Part shown: piece by piece, positions 10,925 through 41,627 of the stretch | How the letters are laid out: each line of letters opens with the position of its first letter | How positions within the stretch are numbered: the first letter of the stretch is position 1 | NCBI GenBank assembly: GCA_002791275.1 | Contig: PFWT01000003.1 | Span: 1 to 47,590, forward strand | DNA: 47,590 nt | Source of the DNA: Candidatus Uhrbacteria bacterium CG_4_9_14_3_um_filter_41_35 | GTDB taxonomy: Bacteria; Patescibacteriota; Patescibacteriia; UBA9934 | Reading direction: 5' to 3' | The notes under the pieces: generated by a model | What the model was told of the DNA's origin: nothing | Databases searched by the model: none | What the model saw: the letters and a program-made list of their open reading frames with translations, nothing else | Translations under genes and position numbers: made by a program

Positions 10925-13726
10925 ATGCTACATTTCTTTGGTCAATCACACAAAGTGTTGGCGTCATTATTGTTATTAATGATATTTTTTGGGTTGCTCG
11001 CACCTCTAGCTTTTGCTGGAACTGTTAGTAGTGTTTACGACCAACCAAGTACGCTTAAAGTAAACACCACCTCAAATCACCGATTTACTCTTGTGCTTAC
11101 GTCTGCTGTTTTGGAGGGTCAAACGCTCACTATAAATTTTCCAACCACTTTTGATACCGCGCTAATTGTTGAAAATGATGTTGATATTACGGACGATTTA
11201 GTAGATCTAACCACAGCCATTGATTGCTCTGGAACTGAACAGGCGTCGGTTTCGATGGCCCTTGATACCTTAACAATCGGCATTTGTGCTGGCGACGGGG
11301 GTGCAATTGCGAGTGACAGTACGGTTGTTATTGAGATCGGAACGAACGCATCAGCTAGCGGTCATCCAGAAAATCAGATCATTAATCCAAGTACAATTGG
11401 AACTTATTCAGCAACTATTGGTGGAACAGCTGGTGCTACGGGGATTATTCCAATTCCGATTATTACAAACGGAACAGGTAATGTTACAGGCTACATTGCG
11501 ACCCCTTCAACTGGTGGATCAAGTGGTGGCGAAGTTATTGCTCCATTACCAACGTATTCAGTGGCGGTCACAAGTCCTAATGGTTCAGAAATCCTGAATT
11601 TTGGTGGCAGCCATAATATCCGCTGGAGCTACACGGGTAGTGTGACCTCGGTTAATTTATTATATTCAACCAATAACGGCGGTACGTATACAAGTATTGC
11701 CGACGGAACTGCAAATACCGGCAGCTATAGCTGGACGATACCAGACGTAAATTCAGACCAGATGCTCATTCAAATCCAAGCGAAAGCTGGGTCGTCGGTT
11801 GTTGCTATCGATACCTCTGACTCTGCTTTTACTATAGTTGGCGCCCCGCCTGTGGTTGTTGAACCACCGCCAGAACCAATACCAGATCCAGTATTACCAC
11901 CTGCGCCCGAACCTACACCTGAACCAACGCCAACTCCAACTCCAACACCCACTCCTCCACCAACCCCAGCTCCAACACCGATTCCGTCCGGCGGTACAGG
12001 TGAACCACCTCCAGTCATCGGTGACGGTGCAACTGAACCAGTGCCAGATGTTCTCCCTAGCCAAACTCGAAAAATTACCACAACAATCAACACAGCTTTG
12101 AAAAAAATCTCAATACCTTCCCAAGCGGGGGATTTTTCTGTTCTGCCAAATCGTATTTCAAATATTATCGTCAATATTCAAGATTATACGAATTTAAATA
12201 AAGTCTCGGCAGTTTATGGGGAGGATGTTGTAGAACTTACGGATATGGGTGCTGGTCTGTACGAGGCTACAGTGCAGTCTGGTTTTTCAACAAAAACGCT
12301 CACAATCACCGCGGATTATAACGATCAAGAGGTGCTCACTGAGGTGTATAGCGTTGGCGTGCAGGAGCTCGGACAAATCGTTGAGCGACTAGACGGTCAG
12401 ACTGTGCCGGTGACTGGGGCGATTTCGATTATTTACGAAATGAAGGACGGTACAAAGAATCAGTGGAACGGTGGCTTTTATGGTCAGGACAATCCAGTGG
12501 TGACTAAAGAGTCTGGCGCGATTGGTTGGTATGTACCAAATGGAACTTATGTGATTACGGCGGCTAAATCTGGTTATGATGATGTTGAAGAAGTTGTTGT
12601 GGTCAAAAATAATATTTTATCGCCACAAATATTTTTAGTCCGGTCAAAAGAAGTGATTGTTCCACCAACGCCCACCTCAGTGCCAGAAACTCTAGCGACA
12701 GCAGTTACGGTGAAAGAAGTGATGCAGGACCCTATTACGCAATTTAATTTACTTGCTGACGAAGCGGTACAGGCAATTAACGAATTTCGAAACTCACCTG
12801 AGGTTCAGGTGGTCGCAGATGTTAGTGAACCTGTAATTGTTGCATCAGCTGTTTCGAGTGCGGTAGTTCTTGCCTCTTCTTTTAATTTGTTGCCACTTTT
12901 GCAGTATATGTTTTCGGCACCAATTTTATTCTTGGCGCGTCGTAAACGACAGAACTTTGGACTTGTCTATAACGCGATCACGAAGGTCCCGATTGATCTT
13001 GCAATTGTGCGCCTGTACACCGAGGCTGGAAAATTGATTAGAACAATGGTTACTGACCAGGAGGGTCGTTATTTTTTCAAAACCGAACCTGGTCGTTACA
13101 AGATCCAGGTAATGAAGAACGGTTTTATTTTTCCAACACAATACTTAAAAGGTCAAAAAGAAGATGGTGCTTTTTTGGATCTTTACACAAGTGGAGTAAT
13201 TGAAGTCCGAAGTGGTGATGTGATTATTACCGCAAATATTCCACTTGATCCGTCGGACGCGCCGAAGTTTCATCGCGCTAAAAGTCTTATTCTGAAACGG
13301 TTCTTACGAATTTTACAAAATATAATTGCGATCAGCGGGGTTGTTTTGGCTGGCATAGTCTTGTTTATCAAGCCCTCTACGTTATCGGTTGTTATGATTG
13401 TGTTGCAGATTGTGATTTACGCGATAACAAAAAAAATTGCCACACCGAAGAAAAGAAAAGGTTGGGGCATTGTTTCTGAAGCCAATAAAAAAACTTCGAT
13501 TGCCAACGCGGTCGTGCGTTTGTTTGAACCTAGATATAATAAATTAATCGAAACAACGGTTACAGACCGTAACGGACGTTACGCGTTTTTAGCGGGTCAA
13601 AACGAGTATTACGTAACGATTGAAAAACAGGGTTACAAAAAATCAGAAATTCGTCCGATTGATTATTCGAAAATGGGAGTACCTACCCCCATCTCAATTG
13701 ATGTTGTGATGGAAAAAGCGGTATAA
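10925..13726 (+). CDS. large membrane-spanning surface protein with Kre9/Ser-Thr-type domain, Pro-rich linker and two carboxypeptidase-regulatory-like domains
   Basis: Signal peptide; SPNGSEILNFGGSHNIRWSYTGS...; PEPTPEPTPTPTPTPTPPPTPAPTPIP linker; C-terminal TMs; two (VTD)xxGRYxF ... YxVxxxKxGF/Y domains. Confidence 0.8.
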   Translation: MLHFFGQSHKVLASLLLLMIFFGLLAPLAFAGTVSSVYDQPSTLKVNTTSNHRFTLVLTSAVLEGQTLTINFPTTFDTALIVENDVDITDDLVDLTTAIDCSGTEQASVSMALDTLTIGICAGDGGAIASDSTVVIEIGTNASASGHPENQIINPSTIGTYSATIGGTAGATGIIPIPIITNGTGNVTGYIATPSTGGSSGGEVIAPLPTYSVAVTSPNGSEILNFGGSHNIRWSYTGSVTSVNLLYSTNNGGTYTSIADGTANTGSYSWTIPDVNSDQMLIQIQAKAGSSVVAIDTSDSAFTIVGAPPVVVEPPPEPIPDPVLPPAPEPTPEPTPTPTPTPTPPPTPAPTPIPSGGTGEPPPVIGDGATEPVPDVLPSQTRKITTTINTALKKISIPSQAGDFSVLPNRISNIIVNIQDYTNLNKVSAVYGEDVVELTDMGAGLYEATVQSGFSTKTLTITADYNDQEVLTEVYSVGVQELGQIVERLDGQTVPVTGAISIIYEMKDGTKNQWNGGFYGQDNPVVTKESGAIGWYVPNGTYVITAAKSGYDDVEEVVVVKNNILSPQIFLVRSKEVIVPPTPTSVPETLATAVTVKEVMQDPITQFNLLADEAVQAINEFRNSPEVQVVADVSEPVIVASAVSSAVVLASSFNLLPLLQYMFSAPILFLARRKRQNFGLVYNAITKVPIDLAIVRLYTEAGKLIRTMVTDQEGRYFFKTEPGRYKIQVMKNGFIFPTQYLKGQKEDGAFLDLYTSGVIEVRSGDVIITANIPLDPSDAPKFHRAKSLILKRFLRILQNIIAISGVVLAGIVLFIKPSTLSVVMIVLQIVIYAITKKIATPKKRKGWGIVSEANKKTSIANAVVRLFEPRYNKLIETTVTDRNGRYAFLAGQNEYYVTIEKQGYKKSEIRPIDYSKMGVPTPISIDVVMEKAV

Positions 13727-16700
13727 TGAATTCTATAAAATTGTATCGTGAGGTGCGTGTGGAAAACTTTCCGCATGTGCCTGGCGATATGAAAAAAATT
13801 CGCACAAGAAAAACTCTGATTAGTAAGATCACAGCGCTGTTTGTGATCGGTTTTGCTTTTGTTTCGATGTTCGGATTTACTTTGCAGAATTTGCAAACTG
13901 CGCGCGCAGCTTCGGCACCAAACATTGTGAGTTATCAGGGACGGATTTTGAATACAAACAGTGTGCCTGTGGCCGACGCTTCGCTCGAAATGAAGTTTGA
14001 GTTTTACACAGCTGTTTCTGGGGGTACTTGTTTGTGGTCAAACTCTTCAGTAGACTGCGACACTAACACGCCAGGTTCAACCGTGGCGCGAAGTGTGACT
14101 TTGACTGGTGGTTTATTTTCAGAATTGTTAGGCGACACAACAGCTGGCACACCATACGCAGGAATTAGCGATACATTGTTTGCCGACAACGCCGGTGTTT
14201 ATTTGCAGGTCTACATTGCGGGTGAGGCCCTTTCGCCACGAAAACAAATTGCGTCTGTGCCGTACGCTTTGAACGCAGACACCCTCGATGGCGCGGACTC
14301 AACCACTTTTTTGACTGCTACGGGCGACACCGCAACCGGTAATCACGATTACACGGGGGCGATTTTTATGGGCGCTTCACCACTTGTCTTTGAGGGACTG
14401 ACTGATGATACCAACCAAACAACTTTTGCTTTTGTGGATCCAACTGGTACTCGAACGGTTACTTTTAAAGACGAGAGCGGAACAGTGGCGTATTTGTCAG
14501 ATATCTCTGGAATCGGAAGCAAGTGGACCGATGGCGGAGCTGTAACTTACCTAACTTCAACTACTGATGGTCTAGCAGTTGGCGGAACTGGCTTTGCTTC
14601 TGCATCATTTGGAATTGATGAAGCTAATAACACGATTTATATTGGCGAGGGAGCAAATTCAAACGGAAATATTGTTTTTAAGGCTTCGAATGCTGCCACT
14701 GGAACTTTGACTTATGGCACCGCTGACTCTTTCGACTTCACTGGCGGGAATATTACAACCGACGGTAACTTAGCGCTCAACGGAGGAAATCTAACGTCAA
14801 CTTCAACAGCCTTTAATTTCGATATTGGTAATACCGGCTCGTTGCTGTTTAGGGATGGAACCAATACACTGATGACGCTTACCGACGCTGGGACCACTGG
14901 TAGCTTGGGTATTAGTGGGGATCTGACGGTAACAGGTGGCGACATTACGCTTGGTACAACCTCGATCTTTTCAGGTGGTGATACCGCATCACTCAACAAC
15001 ATTGATGCGATTGATGCCACCACCAAAACAACCATTCAAACGGCGATCACTGCACTTGCAAACCTTACTTCTGCAACCTCACTCACCTCGGTTGGCACAC
15101 TTAGCGGTTTAACGGTAACTGGATTTTCTGATTTTACTGGGGCAACTATGGTCGGCGCCTCACCGCTTGTCTTTGATGGTGTAACGGCAGACGTCAACAA
15201 GACAACTTTTGCTTTCACGGATCCAACTGGAGTGCGAACCGTTACGTTTAAAGATGAAAGTGGAACCGTGGCGCTTTTGTCTGACATTGCACTAGCTAGT
15301 AGCAAGTGGACTGATGGCGGAGCTGTAACTTACCTAACTTCAACTACTGATGGTCTAGCAGTTGGCGGAACTGGCTTTGCTTCTGCATCATTTGGAATTG
15401 ATGAAGCTAATAACACGATTTATATTGGCGAGGGAGCAAATTCAAACGGAAATATTGTTTTTAAGGCTTCGAATGCTGCCACTGGAACTTTGACTTATGG
15501 CACCGCTGACTCTTTCGACTTCACTGGCGGGAATATTACAACCGACGGTAATTTAGCGCTCAACGGAGGAAATCTAACGTCAACTTCAACAGCCTTTAAT
15601 TTCGATATTGGTAATACCGGCTCGCTGCTGTTTAGGGATGGAACCAATACACTTATGACGCTGACTGATGCTGGAACCACCGGAAATCTTACGATTACCG
15701 GTGACCTTGGTGCGGTGGGCGGAAGTTTTTCTGGAAATGTAGGGGCTGTGGATGCTACGTTGTCGGGTAATTTAGCGGTTAATGGTGGGACGATCAGCTC
15801 AACCGCTACTGCTTTTAATATTGACGTTGGAAATACGGGCTCGATGGTTTTCCGGGACGGCACAAACACCCTCATGACGCTCACCGACGCTGGGACAACG
15901 GGAGACCTTACGACAAGCGGTGATGTGATCGTTTCAGGTGGCGATATCACCCTCGGTACTACTTCGATTTTCTCGGGCGGAGACACAGCTTCGCTTAACA
16001 ACGTTGACGCGCTAGACGCGACAACGGTTACTACGGTTCAAAACGCCATTACCTCACTCCCAAACCTAACCTCGGCAACTTCGCTCGCTTCTGTGGGAAC
16101 GCTAACGACGGGTGCAACCGGGGCTGGTTTTACGGTAGACCTCGACGCGTCAACTTTGACCTGTACTGACTGTTTAGATTTTACAAGCCTAGCGGATTCA
16201 ATGACGCTGGATGCTTCTTTGGCGATTGCTCAGGGCACAAATACTTGGACGAATACGTATACTGGTACAATTGGTAACGGCTTCACTTATAACGCGAACT
16301 TGACTACAACTGGAACCGCCCAAACCACAAATGTTAATGGTTTAACAACTGGGACAGGGATGCAATTGTCATCACTATCAAGTGCGCGGACTTCAGGGGA
16401 TTTAATGAAAGTATATTTGAGCTCACCGTATAGTGCCGGGGCAACGGTATCTGGAAATATTTTAGACGCAGGTCAGCTTATCTATAATAACTCAACCGGG
16501 GCGGTTGATGTTACTGGCGAAACAGCACTAATTGCACGAACAACAACTACACAAAACGCAGCAGCAACCACCAGCGTAACTGGGGCAGTGGCCTCGATTT
16601 CGAACTCTGCTTCGCAACTTCTTGGAATTTTAACAGACACAAGTAATGTTCTTAAGGTTAGTCAGAACTACGCAAGCGCAACAGGCGCTGTGCTTCAGAT

Positions 16701-19700
16701 CGACAATGCTGGTTCAGGATACGCAATTTCGGCAAACTCAGCTGGCTTTACGGTCGCTTCGAACTCGAACATCGCAACCAATGGTGACCTTACGGTGGCG
16801 GGTGGCGATATCACCCTCGGTACTACTTCGATTTTCTCGGGCGGAGACACAGCTTCGCTTAACAACATTGACGCGCTAGACGCGACAACGGTTAACACCG
16901 TTCAAAACGCCATTACCTCGTTACCAAACCTAACCTCGGCAACTTCGCTCGCTTCTGTGGGAACGCTAACGACGGGTGCAACCGGGGCTGGCTTTACGGT
17001 TAACCTCGACGCGTCAACTTTGACCTGTACCGATTGTTTAGATTTTGCAAACCTTGCTGACTCGATGACTTTAGATGCAGCACAATCTATTGTACAAGGT
17101 AACTATTCGTGGACAGACTATTATTTAAACACCACTGGAGTTGGCCGTTATTATAATGCGAATTTTTTACAAAACTACTCGGCAGCGGTTTATACTGCAA
17201 ATGGAATTATAGCCGGTGGAGTTTTAAAATTACAATCTTCCTCGGCAGTTCGAACGTCAGGAAAATTATTTGTAATTGACAACACAGCTACTTACACAAC
17301 TCCTGCTACAGTGTCAGGTTCACTCAATGACTTGAATCAAACACTGACCAATGAAACGGGTGGACTGATGACTATTTCTGGTAACACTGTAAACATTTCA
17401 CGCTCAAGCGTGTCAAATATTGCGAGTGCAAATACAGTAGTTACAGGAGCGGTGATGGCACTTTCTAATAATGCTACGGAAACAATTGGTCTTGTTAACG
17501 ACTCCGGAAGTATCCTAACACTTACACAAAACTACGCTAATTCCACAGGTGCGGTTTTAAAAATTGACTATGCTGGTACTGGTAATGCAATTCAGCTAAA
17601 CTCACCAACCTCAGGAGATTTAGCAATAAACGGCGGCAATATTACCTCTACAAGCGGAATGCAATTTTCAAGTTCCAGCTATATCTGGAAGGATCTAGGT
17701 GCTAATACACTAATGAATTTAACTGACGCTGGAACCACGGGTAACCTCGGAGTTACCGGAGATATTAGCGGAGTTGGTGGTACCTTCTCAGGTAATGTGG
17801 CGGTAAATGGCGGAACTTTAAGTTCGACTGCTACAACTTTTAATATTGACGTTGGAAATACAGGCTCGATGGTTTTTCGGGACGGCACAAACACCCTCAT
17901 GACTCTAGCCGACACTGGCACAACCGGAAACTTAACAACTACGGGTGACGTTATAGTTTCAGGTGGAGACATTACGCTTGGCGCAACCTCGATCTTCTCG
18001 GGCGGAGACATAGCTTCGCTCAACAACATCGATGCTTTAAACGCAACAACTACAACAACTATTCAAAACGCGATCACTTCACTACCGAATTTAACTTCAG
18101 CAACCTCACTCGCGTCAGTCGGAACTTTAACCACTGGGGCAACGGGGGCTGGCTTTACGGTTAACCTCGACGCGTCAACTTTAACCTGTACCGACTGTTT
18201 AGATTTTGCGAATTTTGCAGATTCGATGACTTTGGATGCATCGACTACGATTAATGCAGGTACTAGTAATTTGTGGCTACTTTCATCAGCTGGTACAAAT
18301 GAACTTCTTTCTCTAACTAATTTTAGAACCGATTCAGCGTTAGGTATAGTTCAAGGTGCGAGTCTAACGGCCACAACACCAACTTCGACGGATGGAGGAG
18401 TATTGCATGTAGTAAATACTTTGAACAATAATATTGGTCTATCGGTTTACAGCGATCACGCAGGTAGCGCTACAGCACCACTTAGCTATCTGTTTGCAGA
18501 CAATGCGGCTTTCGACCAAAACGTAGTGCAAGTAACAAATGATGGTGTGAAATCAGGAATCATGATTGATCAAAATGGAAATACCGGAATTGTATTATCA
18601 GAATCGGTTGGCGGAGCACTGCATGTTTCAAACAGCGGAAACCTTGGCTCAGGAATTACTGCATATAGTAATATTTCGGGACCTAACGCACCATTAGTAC
18701 ACTTTGCTACTGGATCAACTTACGCAAACCAAGCAACTATGTATGTATCGAGTGCAGGAGCCAGTTCACCTGCGCTTGGACTTGAATCGGGCAACACTAC
18801 AAACCTCGGAGCCTTAACAGTTTATAACTCAAGTAATACTGGAGTGGGACTGCTGGTAGATTCGTCTCTTGGTGCAACGGCTAGTTACCCACTTTCGAAT
18901 ATTATTTCTTCAAATGTAGCTTTTGATCAATCACTATTACGAATTAATAACGGTTCTTTGAATTCTTCAAGTGCCGGTCTTGAAATTGCAATGGATGCTA
19001 CAGATGCAACAAATCACATATATTCCGATGCTTTAAAAATTGGATACAATCCAACTATTAATACTGCATCTGGTCTATTAGCAACTGGAAATGCAGTTGA
19101 TGTTTCGCGGACACTGGCAAATAATGGCGCCGGCAGTTTGAATATTTCAGGCGCATTGATGACGCTATCAGATAGTGCAAGTACTTTGGGTGGACTAATG
19201 ATGCATACTGCGCCAATGATTCAAGCTACCCAGAACGTTACATATAGTACTGGTGATCTGATCTCACTTACAAACAATGGTGTTGGTTCGGGTATTGATA
19301 TTGTAAACACAAACAATGTTTCAGGTGCAGGTATAGTAGAAATTTCGGCTCTTGGCTTAACTTCTGGTTATGGATTTAATATAAAGGTTGATGCCTCACT
19401 ACTTTCTACTGGAGCAGCATACAGAGTTAAAGCTGCAACCTTGCTAACTACCCAAAAAGCCTTTAGTGCGGTGGCGAATACAACTGAAACTATTTATATT
19501 GAAACAGACGGAGATATTCATATTCCAGCCGGCTCAATTTGTATTGATAACGACGCCAGTTGTACATCTTCAACAGACGGTACGATTTACTATCGATCGG
19601 CTGTAACAACGGGTGGAGACTTAGCTGAGGTTTATGAGTCAACGGAAGTATTACAGGCCGGAGATATCATCGTGATTGATAGTGCTAACCCACTCAAAAT

Positions 19701-21621
19701 CAAGCAATCTACTTCTCCTTATGAACAAGTATCGATTTCAGTGGTGGCAACAAACCCAGGAAACCTAATGAACGGTCCAACGGAAGCTGACTTAACGGCC
19801 GTTGGAATTGATCCGTCGACCGCTTTACCAAATTGGGGAAACTATGTTTTACCACCAGGTTCTTATCCTGTGGCGCTAGCTGGTCGAGTTCCAACACGAG
19901 TTAATACAGAAAACGGTGCTATTGCAGTCGGTGATTTAATTACTACATCATCAACTGCTGGAGCAGGTATGAAATCAACAATGCCAGGCGCGGTTGTAGG
20001 TAGGGCTCTTCAGGCTTGGAACGGACCAGGTGAGGGTGTAATTGAAGTCTACATCCTTTCCGGTTGGCACTCAGGCGGAGCGATTGCAAACAACGGAACA
20101 ATGGGAACCTTAAATAATAATTTCGCTCTAACTGCGATTAGCCAAGCCACCGCCACAACCACAGGCCAAAATTCAAATGGTCTCTTTTTCCAGGGCTCTG
20201 GCTGGGACGGCACCACTGCCCAGGCGGTTGATATGGTGATTTCAAACGACGTAACTGATAGCGCAAACTACAAACTTTCTGTGAAAAATGATGTAGGAGC
20301 GGAAGTTGCCTATATTTCACAAAGTGGCGATATTGCACTTTCAGGCAAGTTGTATCCGTCAGACCGCGGAACTCTTCAGACCAGCAAGTACATATTCTAT
20401 GACGGCTCAGCTGGGCCGGGTGGCGACTTTATGCGCACCAATGCCTCTGGTTGGGCAACAGGTTCTTACGACTTTGCCGAAATGTTCCCATCAAATGACA
20501 GGGTAGTTCCGGGAGAGGTGGTGGTTTTTGCAAACGACAACCAAACTGTTCAACGATCAACTGGCGTAGCTTACGATCGAAAATTGGTGGGTATAATTTC
20601 TACTAGACCGGGGTTCTTAGCTGGTGAAAATTTAGATGGTCACGTACCGGTAGCTTTAGCAGGGCGGGTTCCAACCTTTGTTTCAAACGAAAATGGAACC
20701 ATTGCGCCAGGTGATCCACTTACAACTTCTTCGACTCCGGGCTACGCAATGAAAGCGACTGAGGCCGGACCAATTCTTGGTTACGCGATGGAGCCATTTA
20801 ATGGCACTATGGGTTCAATTATCACTTTTGTTCGAGCCTCATACTACGATGGTGGACCAGTGGTGGATGCGCCAGCAACGAATAATATCGCTTCAGGCTT
20901 AACCACTACGTCAAACCTCGATGTTTCTGGAACACTTAACCTAAACGCCGGAAATATCATCAATGTTTCCTCAATTGCAGGACTCGGTAACAGGTGGATT
21001 ATTAAAGACAACGGTGATCTTATTACTGAGGGTCGAATTACACACCTTGTAAAGTCTTACCAAAACACCGATGTTGAAACCTACGCTTCACTTTCTCGAG
21101 AAACAACTATTCAGCTTTCGGGAACTGCAACGCTCCATAATGGAACGGCAGTTATCAAGTTTGAGGATATCGATCCAGAATTTAATGATGTAATTTCAAA
21201 CCAAAATACATATCGGGTGTTCCTAACGGCTTCGGAGGCTACAAATTCACTTTACGCGCTCAATAGAACAATCGATGGATTCACGATTCAGGAATCAAAC
21301 GGAAATTCAAATGCCGTGATTGATTGGTTGGTGATTGCTTACCATAAAGATTACGCACCAACGGTAATTGTCCCTGACAACATTGCTCCGCAAACGGCAA
21401 CGAGCACACCAGCGGTTATCGCTTCGCCATCAGCTACAACTACGCCGGTAATCACGTCTACACCAGCTACCGTGTCGCCGACTCTTGAAACGGACACTGC
21501 AACCTCGACACCAGTAATTGCACCGGTGGTGAATAGCCAACCGACGCCAGATACACAAACAGCGACCTCAACAGTACCGGTGATTACATCTCCAACCGCA
21601 ACTAGCACACCGGCTATATAA
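13726..21621 (+). CDS. giant (2631 aa) repetitive, phage-tail-fibre-like surface protein
   Basis: TAATG overlap with the upstream gene; N-terminal hydrophobic segment; PNIVSYQGRILN start; repeated FRDGTNTLMTLTDAGTTG / GGDITLGTTSIFSGGDTASLNN modules; two ALAGRVPT...TTSS...GYAM-type C-terminal domains; Thr/Pro-rich tail. Confidence 0.85.
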   Translation: MNSIKLYREVRVENFPHVPGDMKKIRTRKTLISKITALFVIGFAFVSMFGFTLQNLQTARAASAPNIVSYQGRILNTNSVPVADASLEMKFEFYTAVSGGTCLWSNSSVDCDTNTPGSTVARSVTLTGGLFSELLGDTTAGTPYAGISDTLFADNAGVYLQVYIAGEALSPRKQIASVPYALNADTLDGADSTTFLTATGDTATGNHDYTGAIFMGASPLVFEGLTDDTNQTTFAFVDPTGTRTVTFKDESGTVAYLSDISGIGSKWTDGGAVTYLTSTTDGLAVGGTGFASASFGIDEANNTIYIGEGANSNGNIVFKASNAATGTLTYGTADSFDFTGGNITTDGNLALNGGNLTSTSTAFNFDIGNTGSLLFRDGTNTLMTLTDAGTTGSLGISGDLTVTGGDITLGTTSIFSGGDTASLNNIDAIDATTKTTIQTAITALANLTSATSLTSVGTLSGLTVTGFSDFTGATMVGASPLVFDGVTADVNKTTFAFTDPTGVRTVTFKDESGTVALLSDIALASSKWTDGGAVTYLTSTTDGLAVGGTGFASASFGIDEANNTIYIGEGANSNGNIVFKASNAATGTLTYGTADSFDFTGGNITTDGNLALNGGNLTSTSTAFNFDIGNTGSLLFRDGTNTLMTLTDAGTTGNLTITGDLGAVGGSFSGNVGAVDATLSGNLAVNGGTISSTATAFNIDVGNTGSMVFRDGTNTLMTLTDAGTTGDLTTSGDVIVSGGDITLGTTSIFSGGDTASLNNVDALDATTVTTVQNAITSLPNLTSATSLASVGTLTTGATGAGFTVDLDASTLTCTDCLDFTSLADSMTLDASLAIAQGTNTWTNTYTGTIGNGFTYNANLTTTGTAQTTNVNGLTTGTGMQLSSLSSARTSGDLMKVYLSSPYSAGATVSGNILDAGQLIYNNSTGAVDVTGETALIARTTTTQNAAATTSVTGAVASISNSASQLLGILTDTSNVLKVSQNYASATGAVLQIDNAGSGYAISANSAGFTVASNSNIATNGDLTVAGGDITLGTTSIFSGGDTASLNNIDALDATTVNTVQNAITSLPNLTSATSLASVGTLTTGATGAGFTVNLDASTLTCTDCLDFANLADSMTLDAAQSIVQGNYSWTDYYLNTTGVGRYYNANFLQNYSAAVYTANGIIAGGVLKLQSSSAVRTSGKLFVIDNTATYTTPATVSGSLNDLNQTLTNETGGLMTISGNTVNISRSSVSNIASANTVVTGAVMALSNNATETIGLVNDSGSILTLTQNYANSTGAVLKIDYAGTGNAIQLNSPTSGDLAINGGNITSTSGMQFSSSSYIWKDLGANTLMNLTDAGTTGNLGVTGDISGVGGTFSGNVAVNGGTLSSTATTFNIDVGNTGSMVFRDGTNTLMTLADTGTTGNLTTTGDVIVSGGDITLGATSIFSGGDIASLNNIDALNATTTTTIQNAITSLPNLTSATSLASVGTLTTGATGAGFTVNLDASTLTCTDCLDFANFADSMTLDASTTINAGTSNLWLLSSAGTNELLSLTNFRTDSALGIVQGASLTATTPTSTDGGVLHVVNTLNNNIGLSVYSDHAGSATAPLSYLFADNAAFDQNVVQVTNDGVKSGIMIDQNGNTGIVLSESVGGALHVSNSGNLGSGITAYSNISGPNAPLVHFATGSTYANQATMYVSSAGASSPALGLESGNTTNLGALTVYNSSNTGVGLLVDSSLGATASYPLSNIISSNVAFDQSLLRINNGSLNSSSAGLEIAMDATDATNHIYSDALKIGYNPTINTASGLLATGNAVDVSRTLANNGAGSLNISGALMTLSDSASTLGGLMMHTAPMIQATQNVTYSTGDLISLTNNGVGSGIDIVNTNNVSGAGIVEISALGLTSGYGFNIKVDASLLSTGAAYRVKAATLLTTQKAFSAVANTTETIYIETDGDIHIPAGSICIDNDASCTSSTDGTIYYRSAVTTGGDLAEVYESTEVLQAGDIIVIDSANPLKIKQSTSPYEQVSISVVATNPGNLMNGPTEADLTAVGIDPSTALPNWGNYVLPPGSYPVALAGRVPTRVNTENGAIAVGDLITTSSTAGAGMKSTMPGAVVGRALQAWNGPGEGVIEVYILSGWHSGGAIANNGTMGTLNNNFALTAISQATATTTGQNSNGLFFQGSGWDGTTAQAVDMVISNDVTDSANYKLSVKNDVGAEVAYISQSGDIALSGKLYPSDRGTLQTSKYIFYDGSAGPGGDFMRTNASGWATGSYDFAEMFPSNDRVVPGEVVVFANDNQTVQRSTGVAYDRKLVGIISTRPGFLAGENLDGHVPVALAGRVPTFVSNENGTIAPGDPLTTSSTPGYAMKATEAGPILGYAMEPFNGTMGSIITFVRASYYDGGPVVDAPATNNIASGLTTTSNLDVSGTLNLNAGNIINVSSIAGLGNRWIIKDNGDLITEGRITHLVKSYQNTDVETYASLSRETTIQLSGTATLHNGTAVIKFEDIDPEFNDVISNQNTYRVFLTASEATNSLYALNRTIDGFTIQESNGNSNAVIDWLVIAYHKDYAPTVIVPDNIAPQTATSTPAVIASPSATTTPVITSTPATVSPTLETDTATSTPVIAPVVNSQPTPDTQTATSTVPVITSPTATSTPAI
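14518..14880 (+). repeat. intragenic direct repeat A, copy 1 (copy 2 at 15301-15663)
   Basis: About 363 nt nearly identical (a handful of differences by eye), offset 783 nt = 261 codons. Confidence 0.9.
15301..15663 (+). repeat. intragenic direct repeat A, copy 2
   Basis: See copy 1 at 14518-14880. Confidence 0.9.
15937..16181 (+). repeat. intragenic direct repeat B, copy 1 (close copy from 16801; more diverged copy near 17960)
   Basis: GGTGGCGATATCACCCTCGGTACTACTTCGATTTTCTCGGGCGGAGACACAGCTTCGCTTAACAAC... at both 15937 and 16801, offset 864 nt = 288 codons; ends with LTCTDCLDF. Confidence 0.85.
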
Positions 21622-36524: not shown

Positions 36525-36670
36525 AACAGGCTGTGAACAACTAACTTTTCGAACAAAATTATTGTGTTAATATAGAAGTACAGAGGGGATTGCTCCTCTC
36601 TTTTATTTAACCAGTCTGTGTTCGGGTTCTGATCCCACTCCCCATGCTCTCAGACCTTATACAACAAAAT

Positions 36671-37681
36671 ATGGCAAAAACAGACGAGCAAAAAGCTAGG
36701 TTAGCAGCGGCAACAGAGGCAATCTCACAAATTAAACAAAGGTTTGGTGAGGGTTCTATTATGCGTTTAGGTGAAGCGAGGGCAATGCAGGTTGAATCAG
36801 TTTCAACAGGTTGCTTGTCGCTAGATTTAGCTTTGGGGGTTGGTGGAGTTCCGCGGGGTCGGATTATTGAAATCTATGGTCCGGAATCTTCGGGAAAAAC
36901 TACACTATCACAGCACATTGTGGCAGAATTTCAGGCACTTGGTTGTGTAGCTGCGTTCGTCGATGCAGAACACGCTCTTGATCCAGATTACGCGCAGAAA
37001 ATTGGGGTTGATACAAACGAACTATTTATTTCTCAACCAGACACTGGGGAGCAGGCGCTCGAGATTGTCGAGACTTTGGTACGTTCAAGCGCGGTCGACG
37101 TAATTATTGTCGATTCTGTGGCCGCACTTACGCCAAAGGCTGAAATAGAAGGGGAAATGGGGCAGTCACATATGGGACTGCAAGCGAGACTTATGAGCCA
37201 GGCACTTCGAAAACTGGCAGGTATAGTTTCTAAAAGCGGAACGACGGTTATATTTATTAACCAGATCAGAATGAAGCTGGGCGTAATGTTTGGTAATCCG
37301 GAAACAACGCCTGGTGGAAATGCGCTTAAATTTTATTCCTCGGTTAGAATCGAAGTGAGACGTTCAGCGCAAATTAAACAGGGTGAGGCAATTGTTGGAA
37401 ATAGAGTTAAAGTAAAGATTGTAAAAAACAAAGTAGCGCCACCGTTTCAGCATTGTGAATTTGATATTATGTATAACGAGGGTATTTCAATTGCTGGGGA
37501 CCTAATTGATCTGGGGACACAAGTAGGCTCAATTGAAAAGAAAGGAAATACTTATAGTTTTGGTGAAGAACGACTCGGGGTGGGTCGGGAAAATGCTAAA
37601 AGATATTTGCGCGAAAATCCAAAGTCACTTAAGGCAATTCGCAAAGCAACAATGGAAATAGTAAAGAAAGATAAAGTTTAA
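36671..37681 (+). CDS. recA: recombinase RecA
   Basis: Walker [22 protein letters not shown] track start 36644, canonical MAKTDEQKA start at 36671. Confidence 0.97.
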
Positions 37682-37688
37682 TTGGCAC

Positions 37689-37738
37689 TGTAAGCTATAA
37701 AACACTCAACTTCTGAGCTGATTGTTTTATAGCTTACA
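37689..37738 (+). terminator. long hairpin after recA (possible terminator)
   Basis: 16-bp perfect arms TGTAAGCTATAAAACA ... TGTTTTATAGCTTACA, but only a weak T-tract. Confidence 0.5.
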
Positions 37739-37780
37739 AAATTTGTTTACCTTAAAATAAATCTTGGGTATTATTTTGAA

Positions 37781-37937
37781 TAAAGTCCGCTTTAACTGCG
37801 GGGTTTGGGTTGATATTATCAGATCTGTTCCAGAACGATACTTGGCGCGTGCCAAGGAAACTCTCTCCTCTCGTTCGTAAGAAAAGGCCTGATACTCGTA
37901 CATCTATTCCGGACCCTGCAGTTAAAGCGGATTTTTT
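37781..37937 (+). ncRNA. rod-shaped structured RNA, 6S RNA-like (ssrS candidate)
   Basis: Closing stem TCCGCTTTAACTGCGGGGTTTGG / CCGGACCCTGCAGTTAAAGCGGA; central bubble; TATCAGATCT / AGGCCTGATA; GAACGA / TCGTTC; CTTGGC-GCGT-GCCAAG hairpin; ends in T6. Upstream TTTACC-17 nt-TATTAT. Confidence 0.55.
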
Positions 37938-38044: not shown

Positions 38045-38074
38045 TTGACTAATTTCAGCAAAGTTTGATATACT
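38045..38074 (+). promoter_or_regulatory. promoter upstream of rpoB
   Basis: TTGACT - 18 nt - TATACT with extended TGn; leader of about 300 nt to rpoB. Confidence 0.7.
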
Positions 38075-38081
38075 CACTCCG

Positions 38082-38384
38082 CTTGGAAGGAGATATCCTT
38101 CTATCATCACTCTTGCTATCGACAAGGATGCAGAAGCGATGAATAAGCGCTAATATTAGCCACTTTAGGTGTGATCCCCAAACACCAGAATACGTCTTTC
38201 TATGCCCATTTTTTGGCATACGAGGACCTAAAATACAATAAGGTTGTTTAAACTATTCCAGCCTCGAGCTTTTCTCAGGGTGGCTTTTTGTGTTCAGGTC
38301 AGGCGTTTAGTTGCTAAAAATCCAAAAAACAATTGTTTTTTGGATGCAGATAATCAAGCTTAACGGGTAATTTAATACAAAACT
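38082..38384 (+). promoter_or_regulatory. structured rpoB leader with attenuator-like hairpin and 26-nt palindrome
   Basis: GAAGGA/TCCTTC, GGTGT/ACACC, TATGCC/GGCATA hairpins; AGCC...GGCTTTTTG (38260-38290); ATCCAAAAAACAATTGTTTTTTGGAT (38320-38345). Confidence 0.5.
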
Positions 38385-41300
38385 ATGGCACAAAAGACTG
38401 AAAAGACTGTTCAGCCGCGAAAGTTTTTCACGAAAAATAGGCCAGCGATGGATCTCCCAGAACTTATTGAGATCCAGAAGGCTTCTTATGATTGGTTTCT
38501 AAAAGAGGGTATTCGTGATCTTTTTCACGAGATCTCTCCTATTAGCGACTTTATCGGTCGTGATCTTGAGTTAACTTTTGAGGATTATTATATCGATGAA
38601 CCAAAATTCGATGAAACAACCTCAAAGTTCAAGAATATTACTTACGAAGCCCCGCTTCGAGTAAAGGCAAAATTAACTAATAACCGTACTAAAGAGTCAA
38701 AAGAACAGGAAATTTTCTTGGGGGACATTCCTGTGATGACACCACGAGGAACTTTTATTGTTAACGGTATCGAGCGTGTGATTGTTTCACAGCTTGTGCG
38801 TTCAGCTGGAGCTTTCTTCACTGCCGAGGTTGTTAGAGGTAGACGCCAGTATGGAGCAAAAATAATTCCAAACCGTGGAGCTTGGCTTGAGTTTGAAACT
38901 GATGGTAAGAACGTTATTTGGGTTAAGATTGACCGAAAACGAAAGGTAGCGGTTACTTCTCTTATGAGGGCTTTTGGGTTTTCTTCAGATGAAGAAATCT
39001 TACCATTGTTTGCCGATATCGACACTCATCCTTTGAATAAATATATTGAAGCTACACTCGCAAAAGACTCGGCTTCAAATGAAGAAGAAGGACTTAAAGA
39101 GGTTTATAAGCGTATTAGACCAGGTGATTTAGCAACAGCAGATAACGCACGTCAGCTAATTCACTCGATGTTCTTCAATTTTGACAGATACGACCTTGGT
39201 CCAGTTGGAAGATATAAATTTAATCTTCGATTTGGAAAAGATAATCCAGAAGAAGGTGTTCAAGACGAACCTAACAGAATTCTTTCAAAAGAAGATCTTG
39301 TTGAGATTATCCGGGAAATTATTCGTTTGAATAACTACCAGGAGGAACCAGATGACGTGGACCACTTGGGTAACCGCCGAATTCGTGCGGTTGGGGAGCT
39401 CATTCAGGGGCGATTTAGAATTGGTCTTGCTCGAATGGAGCGAATTGTTCGTGATCGAATGAGTACACACGACATTGAATCCTTGTCACCAGGAAAACTA
39501 ATCAACGCACGTCCAGTAATCGGCTCAACTCGTGAGTTCTTTATGAGCTCACAGTTGTCACAGTTCATGGACCAGATCAACCCACTTTCTGAGCTCGAGC
39601 ATAAACGCCGACTTTCAGCGATGGGACAGGGTGGACTTTCAAGAGAACGTGCTGGATTTGAGGTTCGAGACGTGCACACTACGCACTATGGTCGAATCTG
39701 TCCGGTGCAAACTTCTGAGGGACCAAACATTGGACTTATTGGACATCTTGCCAGTTACGCTCGAATCAATAAGTACGGATTTATTGAAACTCCATACCGA
39801 AAAGTTGTTATTGAAAATGGTCGAGCAAAAGTAACTAATGATATTGAATACCTAAACGCGTTTAAAGAAGAAAAATCAATTACTGTACCAGCTACAGCGC
39901 CAGTTGATGATGATGGTTACATTATCGCAGAATTTGTTGAGGCTCGAAAGTATGGAGAGGCGAAATCGGTTGCTGTTACTGAGGTGAATTACATGGATGT
40001 GTCACCTGGACAGATCGTGTCTATTGCTACATCACTTATTCCTTTCCTTGAGCACGATGACTCTACTCGAGCGCTCATGGGATCAAACATGCAAAGACAG
40101 GCTGTGCCTACAATTAGACCAAGAGCACCGATAGTTGGAACTGGCATGGAAAGACGAGCTGCGCTTGATTCAGGTCACGTGTTAGTAGCTGATGCTGATG
40201 GCGAAGTTACACTTGTAAACTCTGGAAAAGTTGTTGTTAATTACGAAAAAGAAGGGGAAGTTATTTACGATTTGAATAAATTTATTCGTTCAAACGCAAG
40301 TACAGCGATTAACCAGCGCCCAGTTGTTGTGCCTGGAATGAAAGTTAAAAAAGGTGACGTTCTGGCAGATGGTCCTTCAGTTCAAAATGGTGAACTTGCA
40401 CTCGGACAAAACATGATGGTTTGTTTCATGAGTTGGGACGGTTACAACTACGACGACGCGGTTATTGTTAACGAGCGAGTGGTGCAGGACGACCGGTTCA
40501 CGACTATCCACCTTGAAAACCTAATTCTAAACGTTCGAGACACAAAACTTGGACCTGAAGTAATTACTTCAGATATTCCTAACGTTTCAGAAGAAAAACT
40601 AAAACACCTAGACAACGAAGGAATCATTCGAGTTGGAGCCGAAGTGCACTCAGGAGATATCTTGGTTGGAAAAATTACGCCAAAAGGAGAAACTGAACTT
40701 TCAGCTGAAGAAAAATTGCTTCGTGCAATCTTCGGAGAAAAGGCTCGAGATGTTCGAGATTCATCACTTTACTTACAGCACGGCCACAAGGGTAAGGTTG
40801 TTGGTATAAAAATCTTCTCTCGAGAAGATGGTGATAACCTGCCACCAGGCGTGATTCGATCAATTCAGGTAACTGTTGCTGATCTACGAAAATTACAGGT
40901 TGGAGATAAAGTTGCTGGGCGTCACGGAAACAAAGGAGTTATTTCAAAAATCGTGCCGGTTGAAGATATGCCGTTTACTGAAGGCGGTCGAACTGCGGAT
41001 ATTATTCTCACACCGCTTGGAGTTGTGTCACGTATGAACTTGGGACAGATTCTTGAGGTTCACTTGGGACTTGCTGCGCACAAACTTGGATATACAGCTG
41101 CAGCGCCGGTATTTGATGGTGTTGACGAAGAAGATATTCAAAAAGAACTGGTTAAAGCTGGATATCCAAAAACAGGTCAGCTAACACTGTTCGATGGTCG
41201 AACAGGAGAGGCTTTCCATCACCCGGTTACGATGGGAGTTATGTACATGATTAAACTTAACCACATGGTTGAGGATAAAATGCACCAACGATCGATTGGT

Positions 41301-41627
41301 CCTTACTCACTAATTACGCAACAACCTCTTGGAGGTAAGGCGCAGTTTGGAGGACAGCGATTTGGAGAGATGGAGGTTTGGGCACTTGAAGCTTACGGAG
41401 CTGCTCACACACTTCAGGAGATTTTGACCATTAAATCAGACGATATTTCAGGTCGTTCAAAAGCGTACGAATCAATTATTAAAGGAGAAGAGATTACCAA
41501 GGTAAATATCCCAGAGTCCTTCAATGTGTTAGTTCGCGAAATGAAAGGTTTGTGTCTCGATGTTGAGCTTCTAGATAATGGCAAAAAGATAGAGCTTAGC
41601 GGAGAGCATGGTAATTCGAAACAATAA
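38385..41627 (+). CDS. rpoB: RNA polymerase beta subunit
   Basis: Full-length Rpo[51 protein letters not shown]. Confidence 0.98.

Follow-up and report, generated by a model that had tools for sequence, protein, structure and literature searches.

What is the structured RNA encoded between recA and rpoB in this Candidatus Uhrbacteria genome? The window, by which we mean the whole 47,590-nucleotide stretch of DNA analysed here, holds between these two genes a segment that folds into one long rod, and an earlier, sequence-only reading took it for a divergent 6S RNA. To our knowledge, almost nothing is known about regulatory RNA in the Candidate Phyla Radiation, and a full-text literature search combining 6S or structured noncoding RNA with the names of this group found no dedicated study.

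A separate gene between recA and rpoB

The elements of the locus are listed below. Here and throughout, the names of neighboring genes (rpoB, ftsK, rodZ, recA, ndk and the M50 peptidase gene) were read from translated sequences.

36644-37681, recA
37746-37774, + strand, predicted sigma-70-like promoter of the rod RNA: TTTACC (37746-37751), 17 nt, TATTAT (37769-37774)
37781-37937, + strand, rod RNA, ~157 nt, its 5' end inferred from the -10 hexamer and its 3' end from the T run
37932-37937, + strand, T6 run, predicted from the sequence to be the intrinsic terminator of the rod RNA
38045-38074, + strand, predicted separate promoter of rpoB, 3' of the rod RNA: TTGACT-18-TATACT with TG before the -10
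38385-41627, rpoB

The promoter-like pair TTTACC-17-TATTAT ends at 37774, 7 nt 5' of the rod; together with the T6 run, it bears out the -10/-35-like sequence and T6 end that the earlier reading had described. Upstream of 23 of 30 homologs there is a -10-like hexamer (>=5/6 positions), where shuffles predict 5.8 (maximum 10 in 500 sets), and the majority of rod homologs have their own promoter and many have terminators. Directly 3' of recA, a long near-perfect hairpin at 37690-37736 (TGTAAGCTATAAAACA...TGTTTTATAGCTTACA) is probably the recA terminator. In relatives, where recA and rpoB were located by tblastn with the window proteins, sites equivalent to the rpoB promoter lie between the rod RNA and rpoB in three cases. 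Reading frames inside the rod RNA are short, of at most 58 codons, and due to chance. Because the rod has its own promoter and T6 run, recA its own hairpin and rpoB its own promoter, the rod reads as a separate gene that would form its own transcription unit.

Fold of the rod

The segment 37770-37945 folds at -72.1 kcal/mol, compared with -39.2 +/- 4.0 kcal/mol for 200 dinucleotide shuffles (z = -8.3, 0/200 as good). The complementary segments picked out in the earlier reading all lie where it had placed them, namely TCCGCTTTAACTGC.../...GCAGTTAAAGCGGA, TATCAGATCT/AGGCCTGATA, GAACGA/TCGTTC, the CTTGGC-GCGT-GCCAAG hairpin and T6. From the 5' end, the parts of the rod are as follows.

37785-37808, + strand, closing stem, 5' strand, holding the invariant UGCG core
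37809-37816, + strand, internal loop, 5' side, partly paired in the best fold
37817-37832, + strand, upper stem, 5' strand (UAUCAGAUCUGUUCCA), from fold, alignment and covariation
37833-37838, + strand, stem under the apical hairpin, GAACGA strand, from fold and alignment
37841-37856, + strand, apical hairpin CUUGGC-GCGU-GCCAAG, its structure kept and its sequence variable among relatives
37857-37870, + strand, unpaired CU-rich strand GAAACUCUCUCCUC (consensus AAAAUCUCUCUCCUC), the family hallmark, between the apical hairpin and the UCGUUC strand
37871-37876, + strand, UCGUUC strand, partner of GAACGA, from fold and alignment
37880-37894, + strand, upper stem, 3' strand (AGAAAAGGCCUGAUA), from fold, alignment and covariation
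37895-37908, + strand, internal loop, 3' side, the larger side, from fold and alignment
37909-37931, + strand, closing stem, 3' strand, which with the T run makes the terminator hairpin

The asymmetric central bubble of the earlier reading stands in part. An asymmetric internal loop exists, but it is not wide open on both strands, because the minimum-energy fold partly closes it. Among Uhrbacteria relatives, the loop measures 4-6 by 6-10 nt and its flanks are paired and covarying; its 5' side is larger, at 8-9 nt, in the window's own family, where it partly closes in the best fold. No hairpin lies opposite the loop. The element conserved most is the unpaired CU-rich strand, which the earlier reading had missed.

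Homologs and covariation

BLAST of the rod RNA against 60 relatives gave short, chance-level matches only. The first homologs came from synteny after recA combined with folding: the region after recA was folded in 75 of 89 relatives' loci, and four further same-family copies were obtained. A five-sequence alignment, with two-sided change at 26 of 46 pairs, yielded a covariance model (R1) that found one full-length match per genome, at E <= 6e-4, in 53 of 73 order genomes (Ca. Uhrbacteria and relatives). A second model (R2), built from 15 Uhrbacteria sequences (family f2), placed the rod in 65 of 381 sampled class genomes, plus a few outside the class; these searches over many genomes used strict filters, and their absence counts are lower bounds. 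Long hairpins score on the antisense strand too (to E 4e-9), so E-values alone overstate rod homology.

Covariation, which the sequence-only reading had proposed as a check on its stems, is strong. In the alignment of 15 Uhrbacteria sequences, both partners vary at 31 of 44 pairs and base pairing is kept in 93.6% of cells, a level reached in 0/500 shuffles, and sliding the partner strand by 1-3 columns lowers pairing to 36-45%. Across 25 sequences, compensatory change is seen at 44 of 49 pairs; the UGC/GCA pairs of the closing stem are identical in all 25, with compensatory changes on either flank. Membership in some other catalogued family, which would have spoken against the earlier reading, was not found either: Rfam scans at gathering and permissive thresholds matched no family to the rod RNA or to 36 homologous loci. 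Judged from these sequence comparisons, the rod RNA is a widespread family of ~125-175 nt that is not in Rfam.

Relationship to 6S RNA

By its published definition, 6S RNA is rod-shaped and 160-200 nt long; its 5' side opens into a large central bulge, within which product-RNA synthesis starts, and a hairpin lies opposite this bulge (PMC8414754). The rod RNA resembles it (RF00013, ssrS) in being a stand-alone rod of similar length with a long closing stem, an internal loop, an apical arm and its own promoter. The two differ in that neither is matched by the covariance model of the other, in their neighbors, and in the rod's small loop and its CU strand near the tip; the rod has neither a large open central bulge on its 5' side nor an opposing hairpin. 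The conserved GG of product RNAs was left out of this comparison because it was not obvious in the Patescibacteria 6S RNAs.

RF00013 gave no match at E <= 10 in the window's own genome and, with permissive filters, none at E <= 1 at 20 homologous loci. The model matches 6S RNA of E. coli, B. subtilis and some Patescibacteria, three of the latter above the family cut-off, and it can be said to work in Patescibacteria because 6S was recovered in some members. We also built a Patescibacteria-specific 6S model (R3) from nine Patescibacteria 6S RNAs. It found 6S in 42 of 381 class genomes, while on 38 genomes of the order it returned noise only, with two weak matches (E 0.95 and 4.8), neither of them at the rod. 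In the reverse direction, R1 had no match at ten Patescibacteria 6S loci. The landmarks of Patescibacteria 6S RNAs are a GGGA...CCC arm, a CCACCU-hairpin-AGG element and often UUCUACAA in the bulge; the rod RNA has none of the three.

When 39 class genomes that had an R3 match were searched at high sensitivity, the rod turned up in G252, G326 and G638, three members of family f28. In each, 6S and the rod lie at different places, so the rod is not the only 6S-like RNA of its genome. The rod lies between rpoB and ftsK, and 6S adjoins ndk in G326 and G638; the third genome, G252, was read only locally. A replacement of 6S by the rod in this order, which the mutually exclusive distribution had suggested, lost its appeal with these three genomes that carry both. 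Because f28 genomes hold both RNAs, the rod is not the lineage's 6S, although it may, improbably, be a second 6S diverged beyond recognition. What survives of the earlier reading is a real stand-alone rod with promoter and terminator, conserved beside rpoB; its identification as a divergent 6S RNA is not supported, given no credible match to RF00013 or R3, the absence of the phylum's 6S landmarks and the coexistence of both RNAs. Rod shape and an rpoB neighbor are insufficient for calling an RNA 6S.

The rod could still work like 6S RNA, its loop mimicking an open promoter and putatively holding RNA polymerase holoenzyme, whether as a replacement or as a second, very divergent 6S. We consider this unlikely. 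Its 6S-like size and internal loop, its position beside rpoB in its own order, the fact that canonical 6S was not found in the window's order and the finding that most class genomes with a 6S match are without the rod, and vice versa, are all consistent with such a role. The missing model matches and landmarks argue against it, as do a loop of only 4-6 by 6-10 nt with paired, covarying flanks in Uhrbacteria and conservation that falls in the CU strand rather than in the loop. The presence of both RNAs in the three f28 genomes points the same way, although Bacillus has two 6S RNAs in one cell, 6S-1 and 6S-2 (PMC8414754).

The comparison also brought together divergent canonical 6S RNAs from many Patescibacteria (L153-L162, L195-L214), mostly below the RF00013 cut-off. 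Their genes often adjoin ndk or an M50 peptidase gene, and the Rfam model misses most of them. At one locus (L198), a gene for a small RRM-type RNA-binding protein lies ~240-500 nt downstream of the 6S start. This assembled set lets one ask which lineages are truly without 6S.

The conserved CU-rich strand

The hallmark strand, AAA(U)CUCUCUCCUC, lies beside the apical hairpin. It is present in 62 of 63 homologs, a count made with a regular expression that demanded the CTCTC core, so that only positions outside that core are free evidence. The strand is unpaired with a mean probability of 0.87, while the rest of the RNA averages 0.27. The CU motif also forms part of the covariance models, which to some extent forces it into weak model hits; the search for the motif alone and the family-level covariation are independent of this circularity. 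In three homologs (L221, L224 and L236) the hairpin shifts from the 5' side of the CU strand to its 3' side and the strand is kept; it is therefore the strand that is conserved, not one fixed loop. One homolog (L130, in genome G003) has lost a clear CU motif.

An exact search for the motif in 287 genomes of the phylum returned 18 sites, of which about five are rods and the others are chance. On its own, the motif also led to rods in additional families that lie outside the class (L240, L241). Most matches of a GTDB-wide pattern scan were Uhrbacteria; a handful of stray records (Rhizobium, Thioclava, Prevotellaceae and similar) we have taken for chance.

A candidate RNA scaffold for a pyrimidine-reading partner

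The reading we favor, with a confidence a little short of even, is that of a stand-alone structured RNA from a family outside Rfam, which offers its CU-rich strand to a partner, most likely a protein. Transcription of the RNA would start at its own promoter and stop at its own stem and U run, and the long covarying rod would serve as a rigid, stable handle. Above the small asymmetric loop, as the comparison of homologs shows, a bulge holds the near-invariant CU strand (AAAAUCUCUCUCCUC) unpaired beside a variable hairpin. The strand may be the working part and the putative partner-binding site, and its partner would most likely be a protein that recognizes single-stranded, pyrimidine-rich RNA. 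Candidates for binding CU-rich RNA would include RRM proteins. The whole could act as a one-RNA ribonucleoprotein or as a titration RNA, as CsrB does for CsrA.

CsrB repeats GGA many times in loops. The rod would share with titration RNAs of this type the presentation of a protein-binding single-stranded motif on a stable structure, and differs from CsrB in having a single CU strand per RNA in place of GGA repeats. Y RNAs and stem-bulge RNAs, whose partner protein we take to be Ro60/Rsr, likewise combine a long end-closed stem with a pyrimidine-rich unpaired region, but the rod has no sequence or Rfam match to them. These RNAs have been reviewed (PMC4726728).

A base-paired RNA partner is less likely than a protein, since pairing at the start sites of 25 window genes is poor and near-complete complements in the genome are few. 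The specific form of this alternative, a trans-acting antisense RNA whose CU strand pairs with purine-rich mRNA sites as in cyanobacterial Yfr1, seems improbable to us. In its favor, the invariant pyrimidine motif is short, stays unpaired next to a stem-loop and is complementary to GAGGAGAGAGAU. Yfr1 offers a precedent: two stem-loops flank its unpaired motif, which contains a UCCU that target binding requires (PMC6778093). Yfr1/Yfr10 RNAs, like the rod, are nearly universal in a large group and carry one ultraconserved, unpaired, pyrimidine-rich motif by stem-loops (PMC6778093). However, Yfr1 is short, with two simple stem-loops, whereas the motif of the rod has another sequence and sits in the bulge of a 150-nt structure, in a window that lacks Shine-Dalgarno sites.

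The complementarity to translation start regions expected of a Yfr1-type RNA was not found. No Shine-Dalgarno-like sites occur in the start regions of 25 window genes, and CU pairing there is no better than in gene interiors (-2.7 vs -4.6 kcal/mol). In the genome, complements of the CU strand with at most one mismatch occur at only two other places, both in open frames and neither at a recognisable start codon. The strict conservation of 12-14 nt across orders also exceeds the usual need of seed pairing. Anti-Shine-Dalgarno pairing by the CU strand looks unlikely because the window genes are without such sites. In several of the 25 genes, a TATAAT-like box precedes the ATG by 5-10 nt, which suggests leaderless mRNAs, and many of the genes look leaderless.

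Returning to the protein-binding scaffold, we raise a wider proposal that is possible but doubtful. The rod may represent an undescribed class of ribonucleoprotein RNA, found in one class of Patescibacteria and thinly beyond, whose CU strand traps a global pyrimidine-reading factor and thereby sets the growth of bacteria with very small genomes; Rho, an RRM or cold-shock protein, or a part of the transcription or translation machinery are examples of candidates for this factor. The rod RNA occurs at one place per genome across the order and much further, and it has a clear part to mutate.

Genomic neighborhood

The adjacency to rpoBC stressed in the earlier reading is true of the window's own order, but it is no guide to function. 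In families f1 and f2, the rod lies upstream of rpoB on the same strand; rpoB is on the opposite strand in family f28, and in family f25 the neighbors are rodZ and ftsK, without rpoB. As far as gene order in these genomes indicates, the rod gene travels with the ftsK-rodZ-recA / rpoB neighborhood. The position directly 5' of rpoB in f1 and f2 would suit a cis-acting leader or attenuator of rpoBC, a role that we regard as very improbable. The rod has its own terminator and by this arrangement would not be co-transcribed with rpoB, and it cannot be read as an rpoB leader because a separate promoter follows it, the synteny is broken in f28 and f25, and in other orders it adjoins ftsK/rodZ. That the rod is only a strong terminator hairpin of recA, with no RNA function, is more improbable still: it does end in a stem and T run, but recA has its own hairpin, and the rod, at 150 nt, combines a promoter with stems that covary and an unpaired strand that is invariant.

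Three further features of the window were observed. The rpoB leader 3' of its promoter (~38076-38260) contains a conserved element at 38168-38187, AGGTGNGATCCCC-AACACC, common to three family relatives; it had no Rfam match in our scans and is possibly an uncatalogued rpoB leader. Shortly 5' of rpoB, a perfect inverted repeat (ATCCAAAAAACAATTGTTTTTTGGAT) occupies 38320-38346. Finally, a 2631-aa open reading frame at 13726-21621 lies within a run of long predicted proteins.
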